Assembly (NCBI GenBank): GCA_035515795.1 | Contig: DATJAY010000003.1 | Coordinates: 1-64,000 of the forward strand | Reading direction: 5' to 3' | DNA from: Candidatus Acidiferrales bacterium | GTDB taxonomy: Bacteria; Bacteroidota; Ignavibacteria; Kryptoniales; JAKASW01 | Length of the DNA stretch: 64,000 nt | In this document: positions 12,607-32,946 of the stretch, piece by piece | Layout: the number at the start of each line of letters is the position of its first letter | How positions within the stretch are numbered: position 1 is the first letter of the stretch | Made by a program: the position numbers and the translations under genes | Notes under the pieces: model-generated | The model's input: only the letters and a program-made list of their open reading frames with translations | Database searches by the model: none | What the model was told of the DNA's origin: nothing

Positions 12607-12650
12607 TGATTTCCTCACAACCTAGTGCGGTGTACTATCCGCGATTGCGT

Positions 12651-14494: not shown

Positions 14495-14584
14495 AATCTT
14501 TATAGCAACTAAATGAGAGTTTCAGAGAGCGGAATTCATTCAATGAAAAAACCTCTTTCCCGTCATTTTTTCCCTCCTTCCCGA

Positions 14585-14680: not shown

Positions 14681-14694
14681 GTTGACTACTTAGA

Positions 14695-14728
14695 CAATAG
14701 TGCCCACCTTATAAGGTGGGCACTATTG
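14695..14728 (+). promoter_or_regulatory. Perfect 17-bp hairpin in the header of the SEFIR module
   Basis: CAATAGTGCCCACCTTA is followed directly by its exact reverse complement. The region from AAGTTGACTACTTAG (14679) to about 14745 is homologous to 17849-17920 ahead of the next module; stem positions differ by paired changes, and both copies are followed by TATA-rich sequence and ACCG. It could be a terminator for incoming transcription or a leader structure. The SEFIR gene starts 70 bases later. Confidence 0.6.
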
Positions 14729-14799
14729 TGGTATATTACCGTCAAAATAGCTGCAATATAAGTAGAGGATTTCAAGAAGAACCCATAATTTGACTGAAC

Positions 14800-17084: not shown

Positions 17085-17109
17085 ACAACCAAACAGATCA
17101 GGATATTAC

Positions 17110-17622
17110 ATGTGGAATGACATAGAAGTAGACAAGGCTACATTAGATGCGTTTGAACGAGAATTCTACCGGAAAGCGAAGTTTTATACAGACGAGAACA
17201 TTGAACAGGTCGTTGTAGAAATCATGAGGGATTTAAAATTAGATGTTGTGACTGCGAATGAAGCAGGCCTTGTTCATAGAGATGACACCGAACATATGGC
17301 TTATGCTTACAAAGAAGATCGAATTCTTCTAACCTATGACAAAGATTTCCTCAATGACCGTGAATTTCCACCTAATTGTTGCCCGGGATTAGTTGTTCTC
17401 GATATACAACCGCTTAGCAGAGATGTGCTTGTAGATGCGCTTTACCTTCTAAAAACCGTAATTGCTAAATACAGAAATGTTTGGAGGGAGTCGAAGATTA
17501 TGATTCACAAGAATTCGGAGATGACGGTATGGATGAAAGAACGCGCTAGTGGAAAGCGACTAAGGTCTCGTTATCGCTTATCAAATGGAAAGGCTCAGGA
17601 GTGGATCAAAGCAGAGGAATAA
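17110..17622 (+). CDS. DUF5615 PIN-like protein
   Basis: The protein has 170 residues, with AGGATAT before ATG 17110. The motif order KFYTDENIEQ, EIMRDLKLDVVTANEAG, DDTEHMAYAYKEDRILLTYDKDF is typical of DUF5615, whose acidic residues (DEN, DxxH, YDKDF) match the PIN-like nuclease pocket. Such genes usually pair with a small DUF433 antitoxin; none is seen, and here the gene is third in the SEFIR operon. The C-terminal extension (RASGKRLRSRYRLSNGK) is basic. It may be an RNA-cleaving toxin or a separate passenger. Confidence 0.75.
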   Translation: MWNDIEVDKATLDAFEREFYRKAKFYTDENIEQVVVEIMRDLKLDVVTANEAGLVHRDDTEHMAYAYKEDRILLTYDKDFLNDREFPPNCCPGLVVLDIQPLSRDVLVDALYLLKTVIAKYRNVWRESKIMIHKNSEMTVWMKERASGKRLRSRYRLSNGKAQEWIKAEE

Positions 17623-17753
17623 TGGCACGAGTTTCATTAACTATTCTTTGTCAGTCGTTCACCGAATGACTCCTCCTCAAACTTCTTTGCAATGTCATGC
17701 AGGATCGTTTCCTCAATAGTTGTTCCCTCAGTCATTTTCTCTTCTCTTTTCCT

Positions 17754-17850
17754 TCAATCCCCTTTCTGCAAGAATGATCTCACGAGTTCACTGAGCGGTA
17801 GAAGTTGAGTAAGTCCACAAATTCTAACAGCGTTCAAGCTCCGCAGCAAA
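17754..17850 (-). pseudogene. 3'-end remnant of an LSR2-type recombinase gene (copy X2)
   Basis: The minus strand encodes LRSLNAVRICGLTQLLPLSE, then LVRSFLQKGD and a stop, close to the intact recombinase tail at 22921-23036. DNA is nearly identical to the intact copy over AATGATCTCACGAGTTCACT. To the right of GCGTTCAAGCTCCGCAGCAAA the sequence turns into the AGTTGACCACTTAG header of the next module. The stretch 17623-17753 shows no gene. Confidence 0.78.
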
Positions 17851-17870
17851 AGTTGACCACTTAGTCCAAC

Positions 17871-17898
17871 ACACCCACCTTACAAGATGGGTGTTTTT
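17871..17898 (+). terminator. Header hairpin with T tract before the large STAND-like gene
   Basis: ACACCCACCTT pairs with AAGATGGGTGT (one G-U type pair in RNA), followed by five T's. Its position relative to AGTTGACCACTTAG and the downstream TATAGTAT...ACCG matches the header of the SEFIR module, with stem changes that keep pairing. It may end transcription of the upstream operon or act in the leader of the downstream gene. Confidence 0.65.
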
Positions 17899-17970
17899 GC
17901 TGTATAGTATGACCGAAGTAGTCAGTTCGGAGACTGTAGTTTTCTAAGTTAACATCTACATTTAAATAAT

Positions 17971-20900
17971 ATGAAGTGGATCAACACAGGAGATATTAAA
18001 AATTGGATTGCCAGCAAGCAAAGGCATTGTGAGCAGACTTTGCCAGAGCTTGTTCGTCGTCTTATTTTGGCTCATACAGCAAATGCCATCGAGGAATTTG
18101 ATTTTCCCAGCGGCGATAGTATCGCCACCGGCGGCTGGGATGGCCGTCTTAAAACGCCGGTTGTCTCGCCATTCTTCCCAAGTGGACATTCAGGCTGGGA
18201 ACTAGGTGCTGAAAAATCTGCGGGGACAAAAGCTGAATCGGACTACAGAAAACGTACAAGAGATCCTTTAGGATTTGCAGTTGCCGATACAACTTTTGTA
18301 TTTGTAACTCCGCGCTCATGGCCCGGACGCATAAGGTGGCAGAACGGCAAACGTAAAAGTGGAAAATGGAAAGATGTCTGTGTAATAAACGCGGATGGCC
18401 TTGAACAGTGGCTTGATTCCGCGCCCGCGGTTGCTTTGTGGCTTGCGCGGCAGATAGGCAAAGTAGTCTCGAATGGCATTCGTGATTTGGAGGCAGTTTG
18501 GGAAGAATGGTCTATAGGAACAAAACCGGTCATGACACCAGCTCTTGTGATAGGTGGTCGTGCAAAAGATGTTGAAGTAATTCAGAAATGGATCACTGAT
18601 AGCCCAAGAATTCTTGAGGTCCAAGGAGATCATCCTGATGAAGCTTTCGCGTTTTTATACGCATCGATCATTACTCTCCCTGAACCCGCAAAATCTCAGG
18701 CCCTTGCACGTTGTATCGTGGTTGAAAATATCAACGATTTGAGGCAGGTAACTCAAGCCTTCCAAAACTACCCATTGATCATTGCTGCACCTGGCGAATG
18801 CATCAACGCCGCTCCTCTCGCCATTGCTAAAGGTCACCACGTATTTATCCGTATGGACGCGACGGTTATTGGTATTAGGGATATTCTTCGGTTGGCTCGG
18901 CCGCGACGCGAGGTTGTAGAAAAGATTTTACATGAGAGCGGCCTATCAGATGCTGACGCCCAGCGTATTGCGAGGGACTCTGGACGTAGTATCCCAGTGC
19001 TTCGCCGACACCTATTTCAATCCAATGCTGTCAGTGCTCCAGCGTGGGCTAACGGTGTATCAGCAAGCACACTTTTACCAGTTTTATTTGCCAATGCATG
19101 GGATGAGAAAAAAGGTGGAGATCGCCAAGTAATGGAAATTCTTTCGGGCATGAGCCATGATGACTTTGTCAAAGCCCTCACTCCTTTTTTATCCATGGAT
19201 GACTCTCCGATACGCAAAGTTGGAAGTGTTTGGATGATTAAATCGCCATTAGATGCATGGTTTCTTCTCGCGCAACATTTTACGCCGGATTCTTTAAAAC
19301 TCTTCGAAAAATCTTTACTAAGCGTACTTACAAAAACAGACCCCAAATACGATTTGGAACCAGAAAAGCGTTGGGCGGCCGCCATATATGACAAATCAAA
19401 CCCGTGCTCTGAATGGCTTCGGACTGGTCTTGTTGAATCACTCGTACTCCTCGCTGTTTACGGTGATCGATCTCCACACGTCGATTCTACTCAAGCGTTT
19501 GCTGATCACGTTGTGAGAGAGGTATTTGCTGCCGCAAACAAGTGGGAGGCATGGGCTTCTATGAAAGATGCAACGCCACTGCTTTCGGAAGCCGCACCCA
19601 ATATGTTTATAGAGGTAGTTGAGCAAGTTATGACAAAAAATCCGGCAATTTTCCAAGAGCTGATGAAAGATGATCCGGGTGTATTGGGAGAATGTCGGCA
19701 TTGTGGTCTCCTCTGGGCCCTTGAAGGCATAGCATGGAGCCCGGAATATTTTGCTCGTGCTGTAAATGTTTTGGCTGAATTGGCCAGTATAGATCCGGGC
19801 GGCCGGTGGAGCAATCGAGCTATAAATAGTATCAAGGATGTTTTTTTGCCGGGTTATCCCCAAACGTACGCTACTCCAGAACAGCGACTTACTGCTTTGG
19901 ATTCGCTTATCGCCAAATTCCCAAAAAAGGTTTGGGAATTTTCACAAGTTTATTTCAGTGGCGGAAGCTTTAGTGAATCGCATCGTTTTCGTTGGCGCGA
20001 CGACGGCGGTGAACGCATAGGATTGGAGCCAGAAGATAAAGAGAGCGACCGAAAATACCTCACTGCTTTTCTACCAAAGTTAAGTGATCTTGCGGTTGCA
20101 AAAGAAAATATTATAACTTCTGCTGACGGTTTTACACGACTCCCCAGTGACATACGGGAGCGATTACTTGAGGTGCTGGGAAAAACAGATCCGGCAACTT
20201 TTTCAAAAGACGAGTGTGCAGAATTGCTTCGATGCATCAGAGATGCCTTGAACTGGACAAACAGTTATGGCGACGAAGAACGGCGTAAGCAGGTACCAAC
20301 TCTTAATCATATATTGAAAAGATTTGCGCCTACAGATGTAATTGACCGTGTGGCTTGGTTGTTGAGTACTCCATGGCCACGTTTGCCACAGGGCGAACCT
20401 GAAAAATACGATGCCAAAGACAACGTTGTAAAGACAGCGCAACAAGAAGCCGCGAGAGAGGTTTTAGATCAGGCATCATTAGATAAAATTCTTGAGTTTG
20501 CTGGCACGATTCAGTATCCCGGTGTCCTCGGTTATTCTCTTGCAAAAGCAGTGCGTGATGAAAAAGAAGATGTCGCCGTGCTAGATGCCATTTTGCCGCA
20601 CGTTGCTGATATGCAGGCCCTCATTCGTGGATATGCTGGCGGCCGGGTTGAGATTAACGGATCTAGCTGGATAGATATACAGATCGAACGAATGACGACA
20701 AAAGGTAATTATTCACCTGCAGCATGTGCGCTTCTGTATTTTGGTTTGCCAGAAGGTGAGCCTACTTGGTCAGCGGTAGCTGTCCGAGGCAAAGATGTTG
20801 AAAGTGCATACTGGGAAGAAGCGAGCGGATTTTCGCACACCAGTAGAAAGAAAGATGCCCTTATTGCCGTCGAAAAATTGCTGGAGGTCAGACGACCGGA

Positions 20901-21765
20901 AGCTGCACTTCATATTGCCGGCGACCCCCAGGTTTCTATTCCAAGCACATTACTTCAACGCTTACTTCAAGAGCTTTTGATGATGGGAGATAAGAAACTT
21001 TGGGCTGCGACAACGGAAGAATTCTACCTAGGACATGTGTTCAATCAATTGTACAAGAAGAACGAACTATCTATTGAAGAAATAGCAAAGCTAGAGTGGC
21101 CGTTCGCCGCTCTCTTTAATGAATTTAAACGCTACACGTCTTCTCCGATGGCACTTCATCGTGTTTTACAGAAAGATCCACAATTTTTCGCACAGCTTAT
21201 TACGTTCATATACAAACGGGATGACCGAGCACCGGATTCTACTCGTGATGGCATGAATAAGGAAATGTTCGAAGGGCGGGCACGCGTAACCCGTGATGTT
21301 TTAGATTCTTGGTATTTGATACCAGGACTTAAAGACAATGGTACACTTGATGAAAAAGAACTTACCGAGTGGGTTGAAACCGCTCGTAAGAAATGTGCGG
21401 AAACTGGTCATGTGACAGGTGGAGACTTGGAGATCGGGTTTATTTTGGCACACGCTCCAGCGGACAGTGATGGTACATGGCCTCATGTCGCTGTCCGCAA
21501 TCTCATAGAACGTCTGAACAATGAGACCGTTGATCGGCATATTCAAAATGAAATTTATAACAGTCGCGGTGTTGTCTCGAGAGGTCTCAATGACGGCGGC
21601 AAGCAAGAACGAGAGCTCGCTGAAAAGTTCAAGAAAATGAGCGATGCGGTTAGAACAAAATGGCCGCGGACGGCGTTAATGCTTCGCTCAATGGCGGAAT
21701 TTTACGAGCACCAGGCAAAACGTGAAGATATTGATTCAGATCTACACGATCTTCTCTGGGATTAA
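17971..21765 (+). CDS. Large nuclease-STAND-like defence protein
   Basis: The protein has 1264 residues. Residues 1-170 form a module with GGWDG (54-58), SGHSGWELGAEK (71-82), YRKRTRDPLG, TTFVFVTPRSWPG (107-119) and ADGLEQWLDSAPAVALWLA; the D...E-x(n)-K spacing resembles a PD-(D/E)XK nuclease. A second module from about 190 resembles a STAND NTPase, but the Walker A position reads LEVQGDHPDEA (215-225), lacking the GxxGxGK lysine, so nucleotide binding is doubtful. The remaining 850 residues are helical and repeat-like, probably a sensor. I place it near Avs-type or Cap4-nuclease-type large immune proteins by layout only. A HEPN gene follows 67 bases later. Confidence 0.6.
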   Translation: MKWINTGDIKNWIASKQRHCEQTLPELVRRLILAHTANAIEEFDFPSGDSIATGGWDGRLKTPVVSPFFPSGHSGWELGAEKSAGTKAESDYRKRTRDPLGFAVADTTFVFVTPRSWPGRIRWQNGKRKSGKWKDVCVINADGLEQWLDSAPAVALWLARQIGKVVSNGIRDLEAVWEEWSIGTKPVMTPALVIGGRAKDVEVIQKWITDSPRILEVQGDHPDEAFAFLYASIITLPEPAKSQALARCIVVENINDLRQVTQAFQNYPLIIAAPGECINAAPLAIAKGHHVFIRMDATVIGIRDILRLARPRREVVEKILHESGLSDADAQRIARDSGRSIPVLRRHLFQSNAVSAPAWANGVSASTLLPVLFANAWDEKKGGDRQVMEILSGMSHDDFVKALTPFLSMDDSPIRKVGSVWMIKSPLDAWFLLAQHFTPDSLKLFEKSLLSVLTKTDPKYDLEPEKRWAAAIYDKSNPCSEWLRTGLVESLVLLAVYGDRSPHVDSTQAFADHVVREVFAAANKWEAWASMKDATPLLSEAAPNMFIEVVEQVMTKNPAIFQELMKDDPGVLGECRHCGLLWALEGIAWSPEYFARAVNVLAELASIDPGGRWSNRAINSIKDVFLPGYPQTYATPEQRLTALDSLIAKFPKKVWEFSQVYFSGGSFSESHRFRWRDDGGERIGLEPEDKESDRKYLTAFLPKLSDLAVAKENIITSADGFTRLPSDIRERLLEVLGKTDPATFSKDECAELLRCIRDALNWTNSYGDEERRKQVPTLNHILKRFAPTDVIDRVAWLLSTPWPRLPQGEPEKYDAKDNVVKTAQQEAAREVLDQASLDKILEFAGTIQYPGVLGYSLAKAVRDEKEDVAVLDAILPHVADMQALIRGYAGGRVEINGSSWIDIQIERMTTKGNYSPAACALLYFGLPEGEPTWSAVAVRGKDVESAYWEEASGFSHTSRKKDALIAVEKLLEVRRPEAALHIAGDPQVSIPSTLLQRLLQELLMMGDKKLWAATTEEFYLGHVFNQLYKKNELSIEEIAKLEWPFAALFNEFKRYTSSPMALHRVLQKDPQFFAQLITFIYKRDDRAPDSTRDGMNKEMFEGRARVTRDVLDSWYLIPGLKDNGTLDEKELTEWVETARKKCAETGHVTGGDLEIGFILAHAPADSDGTWPHVAVRNLIERLNNETVDRHIQNEIYNSRGVVSRGLNDGGKQERELAEKFKKMSDAVRTKWPRTALMLRSMAEFYEHQAKREDIDSDLHDLLWD

Positions 21766-21832
21766 TTACACTCATGTACGCTTTTAGAAATCTTGCACCA
21801 CGAGGATAAAGCGATAACTAGTTCTTACGTTT

Positions 21833-22570
21833 ATGGCAGGTAATAAACAAAAACAAGTTGGTGAACAAAGTCTTGCCCATGCACATGAAGCAGGCTCGAC
21901 TTTCGTGCTCACTCAAACTGCAATCGATCCTGTATACGGGGCGGTCATGTTCCCGGTTATTGACCACACCGATTTTTATTTCAAGGCAGCAAAGCACCAC
22001 TTAGCTGAAGCTGAAAAACTTCGTGAGGAGATACTTTCTAAACCTCTTGATAAATCGAATTGTCGTCTTGTATTTGACAATCAATTGATCGAGGACTTTT
22101 TTCTTCATTCTCAGTGTGTTGTCCTATTTTCATACCTAGCGCTCGAATACTTTGCGATAGAATGCTCACGGGGTCTTGGTAAAGCACAGGAATGGAAGAA
22201 GAGAAGATTGGATCAGAAAATAAAATACCTCATTCCTCAAGAACTGGGTATTCCAAAACTGTCCCAGGAATTATGCAACGCCTTCGGAGAAATTGAGGCC
22301 AGAAGACATTTATTAAATCACCCTGAATTCAAAAACATAGTCAATGGTAGCGACACAGATTGGGATTCAGTGCATGTATCCTGGATGATAATTGGGAACT
22401 ATAAGAAGGCATGTAACAATGCAGTCAAAATATATGATTACCTTAGCAAGCCATACAAATCAGAGATAGTAAAAAGATCATCCAAACAAGTTACTCTAAA
22501 TGTCCAGCGAGGCATGAGGTTCGACAACCAAGTAAAAAAGAAATTTGAAAAACCGAATAGTACTAAGTAG
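21833..22570 (+). CDS. HEPN-like protein following the large STAND-like gene
   Basis: The protein has 245 residues. A helical core (LIEDFFLHSQCVVLFSYLAL, then EYFAIECSRGLG) is followed by EIEARRHLLNHPEF, where R158 and H163 form an R-x4-H HEPN motif with the usual preceding glutamates. The C-terminus is basic. It is on the same strand as the 1264-residue gene with a 67-base gap, so the two may form one system (sensor and RNase), though each could act alone. There is no clear ribosome binding site before ATG 21833. Confidence 0.65.
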   Translation: MAGNKQKQVGEQSLAHAHEAGSTFVLTQTAIDPVYGAVMFPVIDHTDFYFKAAKHHLAEAEKLREEILSKPLDKSNCRLVFDNQLIEDFFLHSQCVVLFSYLALEYFAIECSRGLGKAQEWKKRRLDQKIKYLIPQELGIPKLSQELCNAFGEIEARRHLLNHPEFKNIVNGSDTDWDSVHVSWMIIGNYKKACNNAVKIYDYLSKPYKSEIVKRSSKQVTLNVQRGMRFDNQVKKKFEKPNSTK

Positions 22571-22658
22571 TCAGTAAATCAACTCCGAGGAGCGTAGTAT
22601 AATAAATCCAATAGGATTAGTTTGATAAAGCCTAACGAGGCCGGTACTATCTAGTACC

Positions 22659-22913
22659 ATGGCCATCACCAAAGAGCATCTTGACGAGTTCAAGAGGCTA
22701 TACAAAGAGGACGGGATCGAGGTATCCGATGGTGCCGCATTGGAGGCTGGTTTATGGCTTCTTGAGCGTGTAAAAGCGGTATGCGTTCAGATCCCCGAGG
22801 AAATGATGGATAAATACAAGGAGATAGTAAAAGAGAACAAAATCTGGCTGGATTACCTGAAGAGAGAATTCACAAAAAGATCAGCCGGAAAAAAATCAAA
22901 AAAATTGCCGTAA
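22659..22913 (+). CDS. Small recombinase-associated protein, paralogue A
   Basis: The protein has 84 residues. The segment EHLDEFKRLYKEDGIEVSDG, then AALEAGLWLLERVKAVC is nearly the same as in the small gene at 24762-24977 on the other side of LSR2. Short proteins with this LxxFKxLYKEDGIExSDxAALE pattern are known next to serine recombinases, mostly in Patescibacteria and FCB genomes, with no known function. A perfect hairpin GGTACTA-TC-TAGTACC sits just before the ATG, between it and a distant GAGG, and could limit translation. The basic C-terminus ends KKSKKLP. Confidence 0.7.
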   Translation: MAITKEHLDEFKRLYKEDGIEVSDGAALEAGLWLLERVKAVCVQIPEEMMDKYKEIVKENKIWLDYLKREFTKRSAGKKSKKLP

Positions 22914-22920
22914 GTAGCAA

Positions 22921-24744
22921 CTATGCCCTACTTGTTTTCTGATTCTCTTTATCAGAAAATGATCTCACGAGTTCACTGAACGGAAGAAGTTGACTAAGTG
23001 GGCAGGTTCGAACAGCGTTCAGACTCCGCCGCAGCAAAGGAATTTTTGCTCGAAAAGAGTCAAAAGCCCTTTTCTCTTCTTCATAATTCTTAGGTTCGAA
23101 CTCTCCTGAAATCCAAGGAGCGATCTGGATCATGTGTGCGATCTCAGGGAGTGGATACCTGAGATTAATACTGAGTTTTTTGTCCTTCAAGGTTAGGTTC
23201 GAACCGAGAACTTCGGCAATAGCCTTTTTCTGTGCCATGGCGCCTTCACGGAACCAGAAATTTGCGTTATAGACGAATCTCAACGTATCCATGGCACCAT
23301 CAAGGGAGGCCTCCAATTTTTCTTTGGAGGCATGCTCCTCAAGTTCCTTGAGCTGTTCTTCGATCCGCGACCTCTCAGCCATCGCATCCTCTTTTGCCAT
23401 AATTGTCCAGCCTGAAGCCTCCTGGTGGATGATAAATCTGTTGGTCTCGGCTAATTCCTCCTCGAGTTTCGATATTTCCTTTCTGACATTGGAGAGGCTT
23501 CGTTGCTTCGGCACTGTGTCTTCCTCCGTCTCAGCCTTCATGTCGTCGGTTGCCCATTCCAGAAACTTCTTCTTGATACTGATTGCCTTGAGGACTTGTT
23601 TGACTTCTTCCTCAATCTCCTCGGCGTGGATCGATCTCTGCGAGCAGTGAGGGTTCTTCCGCTTCGTGCAGTGGTAATAGACGTAGTGGAGGAGTTTCTT
23701 GTTCTCCATATCAGGGATACGGGTATCACAGGAAGGACACCTGTCCCTGTTCTCTGAGGCGAACTTCTCCTTGCAGGAGCCGCAGATAACCTGCCACTTC
23801 TCCTCGGCGGTGACCTGTGCTCTGCATTCGCCGCATTGAATGAGGCCGGTATAAGGGAAGAAATGGGTATGAGATTGGTGTTTCAGAGGTCTTCCCAAAA
23901 TCATCTGAGCCTTCCGGTACTCATCTTCGGATATCATGGGACGGTGGCTGCCTTTCACGAGCTCCTTCTTCTCGGTATCGGAGTTAATCCAAAGATATGA
24001 ACCGTAATAAAATGGATCGGTTAGGATTTTGTATATGTGGGAGACGGATAACGGTTTCCCGCCTTTCTTTCTTGTCTCTCTCGTCCTTAGTCTTAACTCA
24101 TCTTTTGCAATCCTGTGTATCCGCCTCACGGAGTATTTTCCTGAAAGGAACAAGTCCCAGAGTTTCCGTACTAGAGGGAACCTCTCCTCGTCGATCACGA
24201 TGTCCCGTTCACCCTTTTCTTTGACTTTGCTGTTGAGGTACCCGATGGGAGCGACACCGGGCCTCCAGCCTCTCCGCACCTTTCCTTGAAGACCACGCTT
24301 GACATTAATGCTCTTGTTATCGTTCTCAAGTTTTGCCTGACCACAGAGGAGTGCCAGCATGAACTTGTCCATCGGGGTGTTCCAGAATATCTGCTGGTTC
24401 GTGATGATCGCCTGGAGTCTCCCCACATCCATGAGGTTCACGAGGGCAGCTGTGTCGATAGCATTCCTCGAAAGCCGATCAGCGTGCCAGCACATGATGG
24501 CGTTGGCATGACCTTTGGCGATCTGATTAATCAACTTGGTATTGAAGCCGATCCTTCCCGGCTCCTTGGCGCTTTTGGCCTCCTCCACGTCATCCAAGAT
24601 TTGGGGAGGTTCTATGCCCAGGTGTTCTCTCAGGCTCAGAATGGCTGTTGCTTGGTCAGGCAATGATGCGATCTGCCGTTCGTCTCCTTCCGTTGACTTC
24701 CGGCGATATTGGATGATGATGAGCCCCTTTATGTTTCCTTGCAT
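22921..24744 (-). CDS. Large serine recombinase LSR2
   Basis: 607 residues from ATG 24744; an in-frame TTG at 24756 is possible. The N-terminal resolvase domain carries the catalytic serine in YRRKSTEGDERQIASLPDQ (Ser17), then CWHADRLSRN and a long helix. The recombinase domain (GVAPIGYLN, DPFYYGSYLW) and a zinc ribbon (CGECRAQV ... CGSCKEKF, plus CPSCDTRI) precede a coiled coil (VRKEISKLEEELAETNRFI). The C-terminal tail, from RRSLNAVRTCPLSQLL on, is repeated as orphan remnants at 14585 and 17754. It starts 17 bases after the small gene 24762-24977, with which it probably forms an operon. It catalyses site-specific integration or excision through a serine-DNA intermediate. Confidence 0.92.
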   Translation of the reverse strand: MQGNIKGLIIIQYRRKSTEGDERQIASLPDQATAILSLREHLGIEPPQILDDVEEAKSAKEPGRIGFNTKLINQIAKGHANAIMCWHADRLSRNAIDTAALVNLMDVGRLQAIITNQQIFWNTPMDKFMLALLCGQAKLENDNKSINVKRGLQGKVRRGWRPGVAPIGYLNSKVKEKGERDIVIDEERFPLVRKLWDLFLSGKYSVRRIHRIAKDELRLRTRETRKKGGKPLSVSHIYKILTDPFYYGSYLWINSDTEKKELVKGSHRPMISEDEYRKAQMILGRPLKHQSHTHFFPYTGLIQCGECRAQVTAEEKWQVICGSCKEKFASENRDRCPSCDTRIPDMENKKLLHYVYYHCTKRKNPHCSQRSIHAEEIEEEVKQVLKAISIKKKFLEWATDDMKAETEEDTVPKQRSLSNVRKEISKLEEELAETNRFIIHQEASGWTIMAKEDAMAERSRIEEQLKELEEHASKEKLEASLDGAMDTLRFVYNANFWFREGAMAQKKAIAEVLGSNLTLKDKKLSINLRYPLPEIAHMIQIAPWISGEFEPKNYEEEKRAFDSFRAKIPLLRRSLNAVRTCPLSQLLPFSELVRSFSDKENQKTSRA

Positions 24745-24761
24745 GGAGTTGGCCAATTATT

Positions 24762-24977
24762 CTAGGCCTTTTGATTTTTGTAAAGGGCCCAGAGAGGCTC
24801 TATTTCCCTGGCTATTTCATGGTACAGAGCTTCCTTTTCAGGAGGGATAGGGACACAGACAGCTTTTACCCGTTCAATGAGCCAGAGGCCAGCTTCCAGG
24901 GCGGCAGCATCAGATATTTCGATGCCGTCCTCTCTGAATAACTGTTTGAGTTTTTCCAGCCTTTCTTGGTAGATCAT
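24762..24977 (-). CDS. Small recombinase-associated protein, paralogue B
   Basis: The protein has 71 residues, with AGGGAG before ATG 24977. It reads ERLEKLKQLFREDGIEISDA, then AALEAGLWLIERVKAVCVPI, paralogous to 22659-22913. It lies directly upstream of LSR2 on the same strand. A role as recombination-directionality factor or regulator is a guess based on position. The two paralogues flank the recombinase in opposite orientation. Confidence 0.75.
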   Translation of the reverse strand: MIYQERLEKLKQLFREDGIEISDAAALEAGLWLIERVKAVCVPIPPEKEALYHEIAREIEPLWALYKNQKA

Positions 24978-25163
24978 GGGGGGATCTCCCTAAGTGTGGG
25001 TCAGAAGGAAAGGGTTAATAAGAGGGGCAGAATTGATGAGAGCGGATATTTTGCCCACCGTTCAGGTGAACTAAGAAGCGACGGCAGTACACTATGTATC
25101 ACGAAAAACCCGTCAAGAAAAAAAAGGTAGACGATGTTTTCACCTAATGGTTCATAAAAATAA

Positions 25164-25194
25164 AAGATCGCAGAATTGTTTGATCTGCGATCTT
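25164..25194 (-). terminator. Intrinsic terminator after the zinc-finger gene
   Basis: AAGATCGCAGA and TCTGCGATCTT form an 11-bp perfect stem around a nine-base loop; on the minus strand it is followed by TTATTTTTAT. It lies 18 bases beyond the stop at 25212. Confidence 0.8.
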
Positions 25195-25211
25195 GGTGAA
25201 AAAGTTTGGGG

Positions 25212-25673
25212 TCACCACGGCATCAACCTTACCATCCACTTCGCGATTCCTTTCAGTTGAACCTTCGTCGGCTCCCTCTTACCCTCTATCATGTCCAAAG
25301 CACATAGGCCACATACGTCTCCGTCATCTGACCATATTGAACGTGGCATATGGCATACCGTACATTCAAAAAGTTCGTTCTGGTTGCATGTTTGACAGTT
25401 GAAGACACTTCTCATTTCCGAGTTTTTCCGTACCTCAACTAAGATTCCGTTGCATCGCCTGCAAAGAAAATTGCGATCAACGACAGCGAAAGTCTGAATG
25501 GATTGGTCTTCTCCGATATTTCGATGAAGGTTAGTACACTTATCACAAAGGTTACCTTCTTTCGGATACCGAGAACGGTCGATTGTTATAAAGAGGGTCT
25601 CTTTACCGCAATCTGTAATTATATGACTTCCAAACTTTGGTGGTTCGATAGTGTCAAAGATATGGATGATCAT
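25212..25673 (-). CDS. Cysteine-rich zinc-binding hypothetical protein
   Basis: The protein has 153 residues with five CxxC pairs: CDKC, CRRC, CQTC, CTVC and CGLC, the pattern of two to three treble-clef or rubredoxin-like zinc knuckles. The N-terminal 45 residues are beta-rich (MIIHIFDTIEPPKFGSHIIT). No family is recognised. Ends WMVRLMPW. An intrinsic terminator follows. It is divergent from the DUF1828 operon, 167 bases away, and could regulate it (guess). Confidence 0.6.
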   Translation of the reverse strand: MIIHIFDTIEPPKFGSHIITDCGKETLFITIDRSRYPKEGNLCDKCTNLHRNIGEDQSIQTFAVVDRNFLCRRCNGILVEVRKNSEMRSVFNCQTCNQNELFECTVCHMPRSIWSDDGDVCGLCALDMIEGKREPTKVQLKGIAKWMVRLMPW

Positions 25674-25840
25674 ATCTACCTCCGGTCTTTAAACATCTAG
25701 CTTCAAATACTATCCTACCTACCCCATTATCAAATCAATAACATTCAATAACCATGTTAAGCTCCTAAGATTAGGTTACCTCAAAAATAGTTTCTCCGTC
25801 AAACATCATTAATTGTTAAAGAAAGGCTTGGTGTTTTAAA

Positions 25841-26422
25841 ATGTGGGAGACAAATGTGAGCCGATTTTTTAGCAAATATCTAGGGGAACACCTTTCACAT
25901 AAAGTTGATTTTCATGTAAGTTTTTTACATCTTTTCATCGAGATGGATTCATATGACACTCTTATAATCCCTCCCAATGAGGCTTACAAAATCGTTCGTG
26001 TGTCCGAAAAGGAATTGATAATATCCAGAAATCCCCGCAAGCTTATCGTTACGAAAGAGAAAAAACTTTACAAAGAATACAAATTAGACTTCAAAGCTGG
26101 TAAGAGTGACGATTTGTCATCTAAGTTGAGACTTCATCTTGTTTTACCAGTCACAAAAATGGTTTTCACACTATCTTGCACCGCAGCAAAACAAGAGAGG
26201 CAGGTTGCCCAAATAAGACACGACGCCATCAGAGGCAAATGGGCGGAGTTTATTTACGACGAACATGACTATGTCTTAAATACTCCGATTTACTATGAGA
26301 TCGGAGGAAATATATCAAGAATCCTCACCTTGGTAAAAGACTGCTGGAAAATTTCGAATATTGAAAAAATTCCTTTGATTGAGAACCATACACAAGGAGG
26401 TTTATTTAATGGACCCTCGTGA
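25841..26422 (+). CDS. Hypothetical first gene of the DUF1828 operon
   Basis: The protein has 193 residues, with GAAAGG some 17 bases before ATG 25841. Mixed alpha/beta with a basic mid-section (RNPRKLIVTKEKKLYKEYKL); a HxDxxRGKWxEFIYDEHD segment near 125-145 is notable. No family is recognised. Its last 14 bases overlap the start of the DUF1828 gene in another frame, so the two are translationally coupled. The promoter probably lies in 25674-25840, an A/T-rich stretch without another gene. Confidence 0.6.
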   Translation: MWETNVSRFFSKYLGEHLSHKVDFHVSFLHLFIEMDSYDTLIIPPNEAYKIVRVSEKELIISRNPRKLIVTKEKKLYKEYKLDFKAGKSDDLSSKLRLHLVLPVTKMVFTLSCTAAKQERQVAQIRHDAIRGKWAEFIYDEHDYVLNTPIYYEIGGNISRILTLVKDCWKISNIEKIPLIENHTQGGLFNGPS

Positions 26423-27632
26423 GACAATCAGCGAGTTATCAAAAAGGATAGTAAATTTGCTTGCCGAACATATCGCTTCGGCTACAACCGCCAAGGAGAC
26501 TATGGGGAAAGGTTATGTCAAGGAAGTATCGGTTGAAACGCCCTTTATGCTGTATGACGATAGAAGATTAACATTTAGCGTAAGGATTGAAAATGAAAAA
26601 GTACTCCTTCACGACGATGGAGTGTTGGATCAATATCTATCTTCATATGGTTTGGACGTGTTTAGCAAAAACCTTCCTAGGAAATATTCGAGATGGCTTA
26701 AAAAATTACTTGAGCGGAATGAACTTAAAAAAAATGAGAACTATAAATGGTTTTGCAGTGAGTTTGATGTTGACTCCTTTGATGGTGAGAAAATATTAGG
26801 TTTCGTAGAATCCATAGCGGCCATAAGTTTCTTGGTCTTACCTAAATCGGTAGGTATGCAACCATTGTCGTGGCAGGATAGGATCGCTTACGACAATCTG
26901 CGCAAGTTGATAAAAACCAGATTGGACGACTCCGAGATAGAGGTTACGCCTCAGATTAACCTTAAGAAGATCAAATGGTCCAACCAATGGGGAATGTTAT
27001 TTGAAAAGAAAGACCAAGTCCCTGTAGCACTCCAGTTCTTAGGTGGAGACACGATCCAAAAAATAGGCGAAAACATAATGCTGACATATGGAGTTCTAAC
27101 AGCGCAACGGAATTTCCTTGGCCTAAGTCCGAGCGACTCCATTATTGTATTCAGCGGTAATAGTGACCACTATGAATGGGCTGAGCAGACGTTTACCCTG
27201 GTCACGCGAAGCGCGAGGACACAGACTAAATATCCCTTCGTGAGTATTGAAGATGTGGATAAACTTATCGGTTTATTATCGGAAAAGCTTATTCTCAGCG
27301 AACAATCTTCTTCCAAGTTGATCGTAAATAAGGAAGGCCAACTCGAAGATACTCCCGACCCTTCTTTGCTGCTGGAACTTGAATCAAATAACCTCGAACT
27401 GCAAAGGGCAGATGCTTTAAATAACAGCACTGCGTTCGGGATAGTGCACCAGCTATATGAATCGGGCGCACTGCCGTTCTCCGAAATTCAGAAACAATTT
27501 CCGGATACATTTGTAAAAGCGGTCGCTAATCTCTTTACAACAAGACTCATAACTGCGCGGGAAGATGAAATTATATTAACCCCCGAAGGGAAAGATTTTA
27601 TAAAGAGAATCCTCAACAAAATTCTGACTTGA
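26409..27632 (+). CDS. DUF1828-domain protein
   Basis: 407 residues; AAGGAGG eight bases before ATG 26409 fixes the start inside the preceding gene. The N-terminal part matches DUF1828: TPFMLYDDRRLTFSVRIENE, then KVLLHDDGVLDQYLSSYGLD. The middle has a beta-rich region (QINLKKIKWSNQWGMLFEKK; VPVALQFLGGD), and the C-terminus looks like a winged helix (LPFSEIQKQFPDTFVKAVAN, then LFTTRLITAREDEIILTPEG). DUF1828 proteins are found in toxin-antitoxin and defence settings with unknown activity. It sits between an unknown gene and a deoxyribosyltransferase/TIR-like gene. Confidence 0.75.
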   Translation: MDPRETISELSKRIVNLLAEHIASATTAKETMGKGYVKEVSVETPFMLYDDRRLTFSVRIENEKVLLHDDGVLDQYLSSYGLDVFSKNLPRKYSRWLKKLLERNELKKNENYKWFCSEFDVDSFDGEKILGFVESIAAISFLVLPKSVGMQPLSWQDRIAYDNLRKLIKTRLDDSEIEVTPQINLKKIKWSNQWGMLFEKKDQVPVALQFLGGDTIQKIGENIMLTYGVLTAQRNFLGLSPSDSIIVFSGNSDHYEWAEQTFTLVTRSARTQTKYPFVSIEDVDKLIGLLSEKLILSEQSSSKLIVNKEGQLEDTPDPSLLLELESNNLELQRADALNNSTAFGIVHQLYESGALPFSEIQKQFPDTFVKAVANLFTTRLITAREDEIILTPEGKDFIKRILNKILT

Positions 27633-27678
27633 GTATGTTCACGATTGGACTTCCAACTAAACAAATCTGGTAACCGAA

Positions 27679-28182
27679 GTGTCTTGGGATGAAGATTACA
27701 AGAAATTATGTTTGCAGATAGATGCGTGGCCATTATTAGTCTTGTCTTGGGGGCCGGGGACGGTAAGCCCGGATTTTCCAAAGAGACAGGCAATAGTCGA
27801 TAGAGTTAAGAGAGATTTGCCCAATGTAGATATTCGGATGAGTGAGGACAAAGATCTTAAAATCCTCACAGGTGGTCGTTTTCTCGATGAACAAGACGAG
27901 GAAGGAGCACAAGCTTTAATTGCGGACGCAATCATTGCTTTAGATGCATCAAGGGGTGCTGGCGAAGAAATTGCTAAGTATAGTAACTCATCCAAAATTG
28001 CGACAAAGATGTTCGTACTTACTCCTGAAAAATATGTCGGTTCAGGTAGTTTTCCAGATCTAGTTCGAAAGGGTTTAAAGTGTTATCCATACTCAGATGA
28101 TGAGTTTAACAATGACAAACTTGGGGACATTTGTGTTGAGTTCTTAAGGGCAGTGATTTTAAGAAAAATATTGAAATCGTAA
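27679..28182 (+). CDS. Nucleoside deoxyribosyltransferase/TIR-like protein
   Basis: 167 residues from GTG 27679. A Rossmann-like layout: LLVLSWGPG, then FPKRQAIVDRVKRDLPNVDI, EQDEEGAQALIADAIIALDA, SRGAGEEIAKYS and MFVLTP. The acidic residue in GAGEEIAKYS sits where the catalytic glutamate lies in nucleoside deoxyribosyltransferases and TIR NADases. A role in hydrolysing a nucleotide or NAD during defence is inferred. It is third in the operon, 46 bases after the DUF1828 gene, and followed by a strong hairpin. Confidence 0.6.
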   Translation: MSWDEDYKKLCLQIDAWPLLVLSWGPGTVSPDFPKRQAIVDRVKRDLPNVDIRMSEDKDLKILTGGRFLDEQDEEGAQALIADAIIALDASRGAGEEIAKYSNSSKIATKMFVLTPEKYVGSGSFPDLVRKGLKCYPYSDDEFNNDKLGDICVEFLRAVILRKILKS

Positions 28183-28205
28183 TCGGCGTAAACCATTCGG
28201 CAAAA

Positions 28206-28235
28206 ATAATAACCTCACCACGGTGAGGTTATTAT
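28206..28235. terminator. Bidirectional hairpin terminator
   Basis: ATAATAACCTCACC and GGTGAGGTTATTAT form a 14-bp perfect stem with a two-base loop. It lies between the converging operon (27679-28182 plus) and the gene at 28268-28951 (minus), so it can serve both. Confidence 0.8.
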
Positions 28236-28267
28236 ATCAAACGTCTTTCCACTAGTCGCTTTCAATC

Positions 28268-28951
28268 CTACATCCTTCCGATCTCGTCCAGTATTTTCTC
28301 CATTTCCTTTATGGACCAGATCATATCATTGAACTTCTTGGCTCCCAACTTGAGATTTTTTGAGTGGTAGTATCCGGTCTCGTCTCTGATCTCGGAAAAG
28401 TTGATGTATCTTTCGGCAAACCTGATTGTTTCGCACACAAGCGCATGAATCCTGAAGTTCGAGAACTGTGTCCGGCAGGAACAGGAATTATCTCCCCCAT
28501 AAACCATGCCCGGCTCATTGTCCCATGTTTCGTAACTCACAAGTTCCATGGTCTTGAGATCAAAGACAAACTCTAATGATTCGCATTTCTTGTGAGGATA
28601 GAGGAGTATTCCCTTTGCATGGGTGTCAATGTGGAACTCCGGATATTTCCCTCTCCTCAAGGCATTCCGTACTTTTCTTGCAAACGGGCTGTCGAATATC
28701 TCGAAATGGCCGTTACACTTCTTCGTGACCATCTTGAGGAAGAATTCGATCTTGTCCTCCTTCATTTCTTCTTTCGAAGGGACGTATTCATACCCATGGC
28801 CCCAGTTGGGATAGAGCTTGCCATTTAAATCTTGATCGATGAGCTTCGTTGGCCAATGGAGCACCGAAGCTCTTACAGTCATGACCTTTATTAGTGCGTC
28901 GATTGCCTCAATACTCTTGGCCTTTCCGGCATAGTGGATCGTGATTCCCAT
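28268..28951 (-). CDS. Hypothetical protein with an IHYAGxA N-terminus
   Basis: 227 residues from ATG 28951, chosen because AGGAG sits just before it; an upstream extension to 29044 is non-coding leader. It begins MGITIHYAGKAKSIEAIDAL. Two cysteines (CSCRT) and CNGHFEIFDSPFARKVRNAL are visible, but no family is recognised. Its first codons and 100 bases of leader are duplicated ahead of the AbiEii gene (30305-30420). The mix of motifs suggests a cytosolic enzyme of unknown function. It converges on the DUF1828 operon across a shared terminator. Confidence 0.6.
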   Translation of the reverse strand: MGITIHYAGKAKSIEAIDALIKVMTVRASVLHWPTKLIDQDLNGKLYPNWGHGYEYVPSKEEMKEDKIEFFLKMVTKKCNGHFEIFDSPFARKVRNALRRGKYPEFHIDTHAKGILLYPHKKCESLEFVFDLKTMELVSYETWDNEPGMVYGGDNSCSCRTQFSNFRIHALVCETIRFAERYINFSEIRDETGYYHSKNLKLGAKKFNDMIWSIKEMEKILDEIGRM

Positions 28952-28972
28952 AATCTCATCTCCTTTCTCTTT

Positions 28973-28992
28973 TGATGAACTGAGGTTCATCA
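28973..28992 (-). promoter_or_regulatory. Palindromic operator candidate, copy 1
   Basis: TGATGAAC-TGAG-GTTCATCA is a perfect 8-bp dyad about 22 bases before the start at 28951. The same element with one changed pair occurs at 30325-30344 ahead of the AbiEii gene, in otherwise duplicated leader DNA. It may be the site of a shared regulator or an mRNA hairpin. Confidence 0.5.
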
Positions 28993-29134
28993 TATCGAAA
29001 GAGAAGAGATGGCATAAGGAGGGCAAAATATACGAAAGCGGCAAATCCTGATCTGCGAATTTACTCTCGGCAGACCAGAATGACTTCAGGTGCTTTGTGT
29101 TTTATCGAAAATGAGATCGGAGTCTAAGGTGAAC

Positions 29135-29163
29135 AAAAAAACCAGCCCGTTGGTCAGGCTGGT
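29135..29163 (-). terminator. Intrinsic terminator after the AbiEii/DUF6922 pair
   Basis: ACCAGCC (29141-29147) pairs with GGCTGGT (29157-29163); on the minus strand six or seven T's follow. It lies about 60 bases past the stop at 29225. Confidence 0.8.
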
Positions 29164-29224
29164 GGAAAGCATTATTTGATTGGCAACGGTTGGAGTAATG
29201 TGTTGAGCACGTTCCATGTATCCA

Positions 29225-29524
29225 TCACCCCACTGACCTGATCGCCCTCTCCGCAATATCTTTTCTGATCCGGATACCGAAGATCATCTGCCAGTAACCG
29301 AGGACATTGGGGAACCAGCTCCCTCTCCGGGGATTCTTCACGATCTCGACGATCTCTTTGCGCGCGTACCTCCTGAAAAGCCACTGCACGTCCTCCCACT
29401 TTCCGTAGTTCAGGACCTGGGTCACGATGTACTCCTTGTCGGCCCGTAGGTCCAAGCTCTCCGGGTCATACGACCAGAAAAGCCATTCCATAGATTCGGG
29501 GATTTTAATTCCGTTCTTACGCAT
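29225..29524 (-). CDS. DUF6922-type partner of the nucleotidyltransferase toxin
   Basis: The protein has 99 residues. ESMEWLFWSYDPESLDLRAD, then VLNYGKWEDVQWLFRRYA and PNVLGYWQMIFG match the DUF6922 family that accompanies AbiEii-type nucleotidyltransferases. The start ATG overlaps the stop of the upstream gene in the eight-base string ATGCGTAA, implying translational coupling. Usual order in this family is antitoxin-like first; here it is second. Probably the antitoxin or adaptor. A terminator follows. Confidence 0.75.
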   Translation of the reverse strand: MRKNGIKIPESMEWLFWSYDPESLDLRADKEYIVTQVLNYGKWEDVQWLFRRYARKEIVEIVKNPRRGSWFPNVLGYWQMIFGIRIRKDIAERAIRSVG

Positions 29525-30305
29525 GGTTCTGGTACCGTTTCACTTCTTCAACGATGCGCTTCTTGACTTCGTTCCAGGAAACTGGTTTTAGCATCCTGAG
29601 TTTCCTCGCCTGCTTTTTCTCCGCGTCCGCGAAATAGGTGAGGCTCCGAAGCCCCACGTAGATGTTGAATTGGGGGTATTTCTTCTTGGTGAACTTAAGG
29701 ATCTGATCCAAGGAAAATTCCCGGAGGAGAAAGTACAGATCGACGAAGTCCCGCTCGGTACCACGGCCGGTCACGGCAACGATCTTCATCGCTCCGATAT
29801 CCTCCTTCGATGCAAGCTTTACGCCTTCAACTTCTCTTAACGGTTTGATGAGTTGGTATTGATACTGGAAAAAGCTCGCTGCGACCTTATCAACCGTAAC
29901 GATGAGCGTCCCCTTGTCTTTCTGTAAAAGGACGACTTCCTCAAATCTTGTCTCAAGTTTCTTAAGCAACTTATCCGGATCGAAGTCCTTCTTCGTATAG
30001 AAGTCAAAATCGAGGGATGTCCGGTGGCCGATCTGGAGCGCGAGGGCAGTGCCGCCGGCCAGGTAGAAGCCGTACCGGTTGAGGAAACCGAACTTGGGGA
30101 GGAGTTTCTTCCTTCTCACATCGAGAATTTCCACGTGCATTGTCTTCATTTTACCAAAGAATCGAGAAAATAAAAAGGCGCTCTTAACTTCCCGAGTACC
30201 GCGAAATCTCGACTGCGCATGATGTGCCTTCGCTCTTCCGACTGTAAGCTCTCCGGTTGCTTCAGAACTCTCCGCCGTCCCAGCATAGTGGATCGCAATT
30301 TCCAT
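29517..30305 (-). CDS. AbiEii/AbiGii-type nucleotidyltransferase with a grafted N-terminus
   Basis: The domain proper starts at Met53 (30149) or Met56 (30140), MHVEILDVRRKKLLPKFGFL, and shows the nucleotidyltransferase signature GGTALALQIGHRTSLDFDFY, then KEDIGAMKIVAVTGRGTERD and FVDLYFLL. Members transfer nucleotides onto tRNA or proteins and act as type IV toxins. The first 52 codons (MEIAIHYAGTAESSEAT...) belong by similarity to the gene at 28268-28951 and appear fused in frame by a duplication of its promoter and start. Whether the fusion is translated from 30305 (AGGAG present) or from 30149 is open. DUF6922 follows with an overlap. Confidence 0.8.
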   Translation of the reverse strand: MEIAIHYAGTAESSEATGELTVGRAKAHHAQSRFRGTREVKSAFLFSRFFGKMKTMHVEILDVRRKKLLPKFGFLNRYGFYLAGGTALALQIGHRTSLDFDFYTKKDFDPDKLLKKLETRFEEVVLLQKDKGTLIVTVDKVAASFFQYQYQLIKPLREVEGVKLASKEDIGAMKIVAVTGRGTERDFVDLYFLLREFSLDQILKFTKKKYPQFNIYVGLRSLTYFADAEKKQARKLRMLKPVSWNEVKKRIVEEVKRYQNHA

Positions 30306-30324
30306 AATCTCATCTCCTTTCTTT

Positions 30325-30344
30325 TGATGAACTGGAGTCCATCA
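30325..30344 (-). promoter_or_regulatory. Palindromic operator candidate, copy 2
   Basis: TGATGAAC-TGGA-GTCCATCA, one mismatch in an 8-bp dyad, sits before the AbiEii start at the same spacing as the copy at 28973-28992. The flanking leaders (AGGAGATGAGATTATG and the segment with GGCATAAG) are also alike. Confidence 0.5.
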
Positions 30345-30466
30345 TATCGAGGGAGAAACGGTGGCATAAGACGGGCAAATTTTACTAAAGGGGCAATTTC
30401 CTTTTCCTTGTATCGGTACGAATTGGTCTATATATTTTCCCGTAACTTTCTTGGGAGGGAATTAAA

Positions 30467-31963
30467 ATGAAATATGATGGATCAAACGGGCAAACCAAAG
30501 CCGTAGGCATCTGGATAAGGGTCTCGACCGAAGACCAGGTTAAAGGCGAAAGCCCGGAACATCACGAGAAGCGTGCGAAATACTATGCCGAGTCCAAAGG
30601 CTGGGACGTGAAAGAGGTGTACCACCTCGAAGCGGTATCAGGTAAGTCGGTCAAGGAACATCCAGAAGCCAAGAGGATGCTCAATGATATTAAGTCAGGT
30701 CATATCACCGGCCTTATCTTCTCCAAGCTCGCCCGCCTTGCTCGGAACACGAAGGAGCTTCTGGAGTTTGCAGAATACTTCAGGGAGTACAATGCTGATC
30801 TCATATCCCTTCAGGAATCCATCGACACATCTTCCCCATCCGGCCGCTTCTTCTATACCATGATCGCGGCCATGGCACAGTGGGAAAGGGAGGAAATAGC
30901 CGACAGGGTTGCCGCTTCAGTCCCCATACGGGCGAAGCTCGGGAAACCCTTGGGCGGAGTGGCTCCCTTGGGATACCGGTGGGTCGAAAAGAAACTCGTT
31001 GTTGATCCGAAGTTCGCCCCCGTGAGGAAACATATTTACGACCTCTTCCTCGAATACAGGCGGAAGAAGATCGTGGCGAGGAAGCTCAATGAGCAGGGGT
31101 ACCGGACGAGGAGCGGGTCGAAATTCTCGGATGCCACCGTGGGCCGCAACCTCCGGGATCCGAGCGCCAAGGGAGAGTACCTCCAGAACTACACCCATAC
31201 CTTGGGGAAAGGAAGCACGTGGGAATTCAAGCCCGAATCGGAGTGGATACATACGCCCGTCGAGCCCATCGTCTCGAAAGAGGTCTGGGAGGAATGCAAC
31301 CGTATCCTCGACGAGCAGAAAAAGAAATTGGCCCCGAAATCGAAACCGTCCTTGCACCTCTTCACCGGCTTCGTCCGTTGTTCCTGCGGGGAGAAGATGA
31401 AGGTCCTTTCCAAATGCACGAGCTATACCTGCACGAAGTGCAGGAACAGGATCAACATCAATGACCTTGAGGAGATTTTCCAGACCCAGCTCAAATCCTT
31501 CGTCTTCTCGCCTGAGGACATGCGGGAATATTTCGAGAAGACCGACGGGGCTCTGAGGGGGAAACAAGAATTGCTTGATTCGATCGAGGGGGAAGCCAAA
31601 AGGCTCAGGGAGGAAATGAACCAGATTATCAGGTTATATCTTGACCGGGAGCTGCCCAAAGACTCCGTGGCCGTCCATTACAAGCCCCTGGAAGAGCGCT
31701 TGAAGCAGATCAACGACCAGATACCTGAGCTCCAGGCGGAGATCGACTTCCTGAAGATTCAGAGGCTTTCCCAGGACGAGGTGGTCTATCAGGCCCAAAA
31801 CCTTCAGGAACACTGGCCGAACCTCACCTTTGAGGATAAACGGAAGATCGTCGAAACCATCACCGAGAAGATAACCGTAGCCGGTGATGAAATATCCATC
31901 CATTTGTGGATGCTTCCTCAATCCTCGAACTCGCCTTCTTTGGCAACACATCCTTTCGGATAA
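30467..31963 (+). CDS. Large serine recombinase LSR1, integrase of the element
   Basis: 498 residues; GGGAGGG before ATG 30467. The catalytic serine is Ser20 in GIWIRVSTEDQ, followed by GLIFSKLARLARNTKELLEF and AMAQWEREEIADRVAA. The recombinase domain holds PLGYRWVEKKLVVDP; a zinc ribbon is seen as CSCGEKM ... CTKC, then a coiled coil (LREEMNQIIRLYLDRELPKD). The last codons cross the right attachment site: after CCT the core TT and host bases give TTC GGA TAA, so the stop belongs to the target gene. In the circular form codon 497 becomes TTA and the frame continues into the HTH gene for 146 more residues. It is the best candidate for the enzyme that placed the element here. Confidence 0.93.
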   Translation: MKYDGSNGQTKAVGIWIRVSTEDQVKGESPEHHEKRAKYYAESKGWDVKEVYHLEAVSGKSVKEHPEAKRMLNDIKSGHITGLIFSKLARLARNTKELLEFAEYFREYNADLISLQESIDTSSPSGRFFYTMIAAMAQWEREEIADRVAASVPIRAKLGKPLGGVAPLGYRWVEKKLVVDPKFAPVRKHIYDLFLEYRRKKIVARKLNEQGYRTRSGSKFSDATVGRNLRDPSAKGEYLQNYTHTLGKGSTWEFKPESEWIHTPVEPIVSKEVWEECNRILDEQKKKLAPKSKPSLHLFTGFVRCSCGEKMKVLSKCTSYTCTKCRNRININDLEEIFQTQLKSFVFSPEDMREYFEKTDGALRGKQELLDSIEGEAKRLREEMNQIIRLYLDRELPKDSVAVHYKPLEERLKQINDQIPELQAEIDFLKIQRLSQDEVVYQAQNLQEHWPNLTFEDKRKIVETITEKITVAGDEISIHLWMLPQSSNSPSLATHPFG

Positions 31964-31972
31964 TTCTGGTAG
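31938..31972. other. Right attachment site of the LSR1 element
   Basis: The element half CTTTGGCAACACATCCT (31938-31954) is followed by the core TT (31955-31956) and the host half CGGATAATTCTGG, which on the minus strand encodes QNYP of the T9SS sorting domain. Pairing with the left site rebuilds attP as the two arms around TT, and attB as GGATTGAATGGG-TT-CGGATAATTCTGG. Confidence 0.88.
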
Positions 31973-32946
31973 ACAGCGTAATCCTTCGGAAGCTGCACTT
32001 GCACCTGTAAGATTTCACCAGCCTGCTGAGTCGCGCCGGATTTGCTCACGGATTCTATCTTGTAATAATATGTCTGTCCGCCGACCACTTTTGCATCGAC
32101 GAACGAATACGTGCCGCCATGCGTGGGGTTGCCCGAAGCTTTTAAGGCCGGGTTCGATAAACAACTGGAGATCAATTCGTAGGGTCCGTCTTTCACAAGC
32201 GAGCGAGAAATGTTGAATCCGACGACGTCGATCTCCGCTGCGGTGGAGATGCTCAGAGAGATTCTTCCGGCGTCGACTTTCGCAGTAATTCCTTTCATGG
32301 TGACAGGAAGGGAAGCATCGACAGTGCCAAATGCGGTGAAGTTATCAACTCTATTTGTTCCACTGCTTGCTACAGTTCCACCATTGATGCTTGCGGTTGA
32401 GTCATCAGCCAGCCTGATATAAATGGTCGATTTGTCATTCAACCCTGTAACAGTGCTTAGATCAAGCGTTCTTGTTGAGGCTGTCTTTCTGGAACTGGAA
32501 CTCCAAGTATCACCCGTGAGCAAATATGTGCTGTTTGTACCCGTTGGATCGATAAAACTTGAACCATTTGTACTGTACTGGACCTTGAAATCCCTAGGTC
32601 CTGTACTGCTTGCAGTTTGGTCCCACATTATCTGAATGCTACCGTAACCGTTGGTGCTGAACGCAAATTGGTAATAATCTCCGACAGACCAATTGTTGAC
32701 TGAAAATGAATGGGCGGAGCCATTACCAGAGGGACTGCTCCATGTTGATAAAGCAGCATGCTGACCTGTAAAGGAAGAACCAATTCTCGATACTCCTCCG
32801 TCTGCTGTTTGATTAGTTATCGCAGGTGCCGTCCCGGAACCAGATATTCCTGCTGATTCAAACGACCAGCTAGCAAGCGTGTCCTGCTGCCCCCATACAT
32901 TCGCGGTCATAAGCCCGACGATGACCAATGATGTGGCATACCTCAT
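31957..32946 (-). pseudogene. 5' part of the T9SS gene split by the mobile element
   Basis: ATG 32946 has AGGAGGAG just upstream. The frame encodes a signal peptide (SLVIVGLMTANVWGQ), a jelly-roll-like domain (TLASWSFESAG, DYYQFAFSTNGYGSIQIMWD, RDFKVQYSTNGSSF), a domain with AEIDVVGFNISRSLVKDGPY, and the beginning of a sorting domain (YAVYQNYP). Past 31957 the frame runs into recombinase antisense DNA and stops at 31918. The rest of the sorting domain is at 6962-7208. A protein made now would lack the T9SS signal and would not be secreted or anchored properly. The intact form had 412 residues. Confidence 0.93.

Follow-up and report, generated by a model that had tools for sequence, protein, structure and literature searches.

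What becomes of a recombinase gene when the site at which the element recombines lies inside its reading frame? The question is raised by an integrated element of 24,746 bp (one core copy included) and by the large serine recombinase (LSR) gene at its right end, LSR1, in a window of 64,000 nucleotides (the window being the whole stretch of DNA that was analysed, positions 1 to 64,000 of contig DATJAY010000003.1 from a Candidatus Acidiferrales bacterium). We consider it likely that the attachment site of the element (attP) is located within the LSR gene, at a flexible linker between a complete recombinase and a tandem helix-turn-helix (HTH) tail, and that integration strips off this tail, for which we propose a regulatory or tethering role in the circular state. 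The features concerned are listed here by window position and strand.

7211..31956: integrated element; its excision restores a target open reading frame (ORF) of 426 codons
7209..7210: core TT of attL
7211..7223, + strand: attP half-site AGGTCGCGTTGCC, part of attL and at the same time the first codons of the tail
7211..7652, + strand: tandem-HTH tail frame (Pfam HTH_3, two stretches), in frame with LSR1 in the circle
30467..31963, + strand: LSR1, large serine recombinase, 498 amino acids when integrated (ORF; Pfam Resolvase and Recombinase)
31942..31954, + strand: attP half-site GGCAACACATCCT, the 3' end of LSR1 and part of attR, symmetric to 7211-7223 around TT
31955..31956: core TT of attR, the first two bases of LSR1 codon 497
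31957..32946, - strand: 5' part of the target gene, coding for a protein sorted by the type IX secretion system (T9SS) (joined ORF)
6962..7210, - strand: 3' part of the target gene, with the remainder of the T9SS sorting domain (joined ORF)

The element is thus inserted within the gene for a T9SS-sorted protein. With slashes at the borders, its left end reads ...ATGGGTT/AGGTCGCGTTGCC and its right end GGCAACACATCCT/TT/CGGATAA. Deletion of 7211-31956, with one TT kept, regains the target ORF, in which the T9SS sorting domain (YQNYPNPFNPATT) is intact, and the ends of the element are therefore exact. The attP rebuilt from both ends, GGCAACACATCCT-TT-AGGTCGCGTTGCC, has symmetric arms (GGCAAC/GTTGCC plus CCT/AGG), as would be expected for a serine integrase.

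Two Pfam domains of LSR1 scored over their cut-offs (PF00239, 109 bits; PF07508, 64 bits), the zinc ribbon PF13408 stayed under its own (18.2 bits against 25.3), and a Shine-Dalgarno-like GGGAGGG is found ahead of the gene at 30453-30459. The core is preceded by the codons TTG GCA ACA CAT CCT. Codon 497 (31955-31957) spans the core, reads TTC and is followed by GGA TAA from the target, the last two codons of LSR1 being completed or supplied by target DNA. When the ends are joined as in a circle, the same frame reads TTA GGT CGC GTT GCC... and continues free of stops into the tandem HTH, giving a frame of 643 residues. There is no ATG between the core and the HTH, and the sole in-frame candidate start is a GTG without a Shine-Dalgarno sequence at the usual spacing. 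All of this bears out an earlier note made from the letters of this DNA, which had described the frame, found the HTH to be without a good start of its own and proposed that integration severs an HTH tail from a recombinase fusion encoded by the circle. The proposal now has strong support, as both homologues that keep the tail and split integrated relatives in which it is replaced have been found.

Among 80 recombinase relatives fetched from genome contigs, the HTH tail was unbroken in three, L055, L079 and L105 (688, 739 and 648 codons from stop to stop), and a further unbroken fusion of 647 codons was found on G503:C11. These intact fusions, with ORFs of 647-739 codons and attP inside the frame, come from four genomes other than that of the window. 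In L080 the first HTH is present alone, and in L063 and L058 the fusion layout is disrupted by a stop or a frameshift. All of them carry attP arms at the join, with a palindrome that exceeds that of shuffled sequence in L055, L063, L079 and L105 and does not in L058, L080 and G503. Of two further compared relatives, L104, from Desulforudis, is split in comM, and L105, from Moraniibacteriota, is intact; they share 87% identity over 503 residues and 58% identity in their tails, and by this comparison appear as one element type captured in both states.

Recombinases of this build occur in many bacterial phyla, and cultured strains such as Euryhalocaulis caribicus JL2009 (L108) and Caulobacter ginsengisoli DSM 18695 (L100) are among the carriers. 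The half-site GGCAACNNAACNT-CA marks the end of most relatives, with antisense DNA of comM behind it. In about 20 contigs, the window's included and most of them with comM insertions, the recombinase and HTH ends are found on one contig in the expected geometry, i.e., the tail upstream of the recombinase and on the same strand, which is what the logic of a circle requires; the geometry was missing or partial on three (G479:C23, G545:C6 and G546:C28). Cores were set by the phase of the arms together with the joining of the flanks, symmetry-only scoring having given wrong cores for some pairs (e.g., G494), and joining the flanks at the inferred core regained, in all 10 elements that were tested, an open comM frame (437-536 codons). 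Tails were found in 39 of 50 and in 22 of 28 recombinase-carrying genomes. Among 149 genomes related to the source, a tail was present in seven of the eight with a recombinase vs nine of the 141 without (Fisher p ~3e-7).

Some comM insertions lie in the sense direction, with core TG on the recombinase strand (L202, on the reverse strand, and L091 in G531; L168 in G003). In these the frame of the N-terminal part of ComM continues into the HTH tail (519 and 520 codons); in G531 the recombinase frame also continues into the C-terminal part of ComM (665 codons). Another relative, L084, ends near 2460-2600 in an apparent tRNA gene (GGGATTCGAACCC...) rather than in comM; the target may therefore change within the group. 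Several HTH tails are clustered at G000:C3:110000-127000 (L022, L023), two of them head to head around the symmetric site GGCAACGCAACCATGTAGTTGCGTGGC; the cluster looks like the product of repeated insertions that left tails behind.

The reading frame provides evidence of another kind. The attP arm of the recombinase is read in one of two phases, and the opposite arm, in the tail, is read in the matching one: class A reads ATxPxGRVAxL and class B reads QRNxxxALPFC. Recombinase and HTH phases agree in the approximately 20 same-contig elements, where chance would give one in three. In a second batch the phase of the tail was predicted from the recombinase before looking, and nine of nine same-contig elements had an agreeing tail, while one extra copy disagreed. 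This copy, in G528 (50878-51282), is the sole out-of-phase tail on a recombinase-bearing contig, apparently through a frameshift between arm and HTH; no HTH gene with a start of its own and out of phase with the recombinase, the arrangement that would have spoken against the earlier note, was found. As the elements are related, the phase pairs are not all independent, and the changes of class are the stronger evidence. Along the recombinase tree the phase class changes eight times, at least six of these being forced by well-supported branches, and the tail phase matches in the T9SS branch (its own LSR1 and LSR2, the latter taken up below), in G484, in the main alphaproteobacterial group and in the L116/G555 reversal. 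A shift on one side of attP that is matched on the other is otherwise hard to explain, and attP is therefore almost certainly translated, as far as frames can tell. Besides, the linker between arm and HTH was under protein-level constraint in four of five groups, and distances among tails and among recombinases were correlated (Mantel r 0.61, p 0.0001).

The source genome itself contains further examples. A recombinase 75% identical to LSR1 ends at GGTAACGTATCCTTT inside another T9SS gene, and on a different contig a T9SS gene holds AGGTCGTGTTACC, the corresponding half, with an HTH tail behind it. Put together, the halves form a symmetric attP, and the frame once more leads from recombinase to HTH without a break; they would be both ends of a single element that a contig gap interrupts. 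For a third recombinase (65% identical), in-frame partner tails are found upstream on the contig that carries it.

What is lost with the tail can be seen in a structural model of the L105 fusion. The model shows a complete LSR, with long paired helices at 346-441 and full-length serine integrase complexes as its best fold matches, and has a long low-confidence stretch only at ~481-513, which contains the core; the HTH domains follow at ~522-573 and ~584-635. The LSR is complete ahead of the core, and therefore integration strips the tail alone, the short (integrated) form retaining every known LSR domain. The tail consists of XRE-type HTH domains, and its profile matches the P22 C2, SinR and 434 repressors. 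Several positions of the recognition helix of the first HTH are more variable than the tail average, although the att sites are common to the elements, which is mild evidence that the tail may read element-specific DNA and not the att sites. By inspection the C-termini of the tails (...ETPSLR, ...RFLKT, ...QEEET, ...LLSTLV) share no ssrA-like end. Except in the sense-oriented insertions, the tail is coupled to a start solely in the circular state.

Anatomy, frame, natural fusions and split relatives establish the arrangement, and we infer that both the long and the short protein are made. In the circle a single gene, read from the recombinase start, would yield the recombinase-HTH protein. Recombination with attB would put a few target codons and a stop in the place of those for the tail, and the integrated element would then encode a tail-less, domain-complete recombinase, with the tail stranded at the opposite end without a good start codon. 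The likeliest part for the tail, at somewhat less than an even chance, would be that of a circle-state DNA-binding domain (an autorepressor, a binder of element-specific operators or a tether that keeps the enzyme on the DNA of the element) that ceases to act upon integration. That a recombinase group in many phyla switches itself by integration from a tailed to a tail-less form, the start-less orphan tandem-HTH genes being tails shed at attL, seems to us rather probable.

The main rival to a regulatory or tethering tail is direct control of direction, which the earlier note had put forward and which is possible but to our judgement rather unlikely: the tail would act on recombination itself, the long form favouring attP x attB or blocking another reaction, and excision would fall to the short form, possibly aided by a directionality factor. 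The tail is indeed lost exactly as the needed reaction turns from integration to excision, artificial C-terminal fusions of directionality factors alter the direction of serine integrases (PMC5737554), and an altered C-terminus shifts the specificity of the Mx8 integrase (PMC6070905). However, known directionality-factor fusions drive attL x attR, the opposite of what the enzyme encoded by the circle would need, and as the short form lacks none of the LSR domains and the tail looks like XRE repressors and not like a known directionality factor, other roles of the tail fit as well or better. A tail required for recombination generally is improbable. Its loss would lock the element in place in the style of the archaeal suicidal integrases, excision then depending on another intact copy or on a second recombinase, and in keeping with this some elements carry a second serine recombinase and many orphan tails linger in genomes, as if elements decayed in place; yet here the catalytic and the DNA-binding part stay together, as they do not in the suicidal integrases, and the tail-less recombinase genes remain open in most relatives. 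By far the least probable is that the HTH is a separate gene that starts beside attP by chance, with a common frame that is accidental or merely inherited. An independent start is conceivable for class B tails, which have a TTG in the attP arm and in some cases an ATG across the core, but among class A tails there are several without a usable start, uninterrupted fusions exist, and the phase shifts match on both sides of attP on several branches.

Some observations weigh against the reading that we prefer, a tail stripped by integration and regulatory or tethering in the circle. The contigs with intact fusions are linear, no terminal overlap having been found when they were checked for circularity, and three of them carry another, different serine recombinase close by: G496:C14 (L160-L162), G520:C17 (L163-L166) and G503:C11 (L159). 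Those intact fusions may be elements integrated via the other recombinase, with the fusion left whole, and not free circles. No circular molecule of the element or of its close relatives was seen in scans of viral contigs for the intact-attP pattern or in the 149 genomes, where the rejoined T9SS attP was sought. Likewise, the short linker of the window's own pair (L008, L009) is without protein-level constraint, and we infer the regulatory role of the tail from its fold only.

Inside the element there is a second serine recombinase gene:

22921..24756, - strand: LSR2, 611 amino acids (Pfam)

LSR2 is only distantly related to LSR1 (24% identity) and is not the enzyme used for the insertion of the LSR1 element. 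The 92 nucleotides at the 3' end of its gene are repeated twice more in the element at 61-79% identity (14588-14679, 17757-17848 and 22942-23033), possibly as remnants of LSR2-type insertions. The element also has defence-like cargo at 14800-16254 and 29517-30305, a bSEFIR protein (PADLOC, 358 bits) and an AbiEii-like protein.

The integrase of Myxococcus phage Mx8 is a tyrosine recombinase. Its attP is located inside int, and the gene acquires a new 3' end by integration, the enzyme remaining active with changed specificity (PMC6070905). LSR1 resembles it in the position of attP within the integrase gene and in a C-terminus changed by integration (here from anatomy alone), but for Mx8 no removal of a separate tandem-HTH domain has been reported. 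In archaeal SSV-type suicidal integrases, too, the recombination site is within the integrase gene, and integration splits this gene; a review calls these enzymes exclusive to archaea (PMC8371274). They are, however, tyrosine recombinases split into Int(N) and Int(C), whereas LSR1 is a serine recombinase that stays whole, the tail alone being severed. In mycobacteriophage BPs an attP inside the repressor gene results in a protein that is longer in the virus and shorter in the prophage (PMC4557955). For LSR1 a gene with an internal attP would likewise give two protein lengths, as an integration-dependent switch, but in BPs the gene is a repressor and the tail a degradation tag, and here the gene is a recombinase and the tail an HTH of DNA-binding type. 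With phage LSRs of the LI/A118, Bxb1 and phiC31 type LSR1 shares the full LSR fold before the tail and a short symmetric attP with a 2-bp core common to attB, although no structural match spans the HTH tail as part of an LSR. Artificial fusions of an integrase with a directionality factor likewise place an extra C-terminal domain on a serine integrase (PMC5737554), but they are engineered, the factor is not an XRE-type HTH and integration leaves them unaffected. The program Islander makes provision for integrases reaching across attP, with Mx8 and SSV as the cases cited (PMC4383910). The precedents, Mx8 and the archaeal suicidal integrases, are of the tyrosine type; in the open-access literature searched we found no report of a serine recombinase with attP inside its own gene, an absence that is not proof. 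Phage and plasmid collections gave distant LSRs only (~22-27% identity among the matches listed) and one weak HTH match each, with no fusion of this group and, in the phage collection, no tailed relative. In viral contigs a single-sequence scan found no relative and an alignment scan two, with no tail shown for either of them. In one of the alignments, which served for searching alone, the first row has four mistyped residues at its N-terminus.

In serine integrases the separation of integration from excision is usually credited to a separate directionality factor. If instead the state of integration decides which form of the recombinase is made, this would be a different layer of control, and a testable one. 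It would also give an origin for start-less tandem-HTH genes, and the group supplies many att pairs at the conserved comM site. Finally, it carries a warning: recombinase genes taken from integrated elements may be without their natural C-terminal domain.
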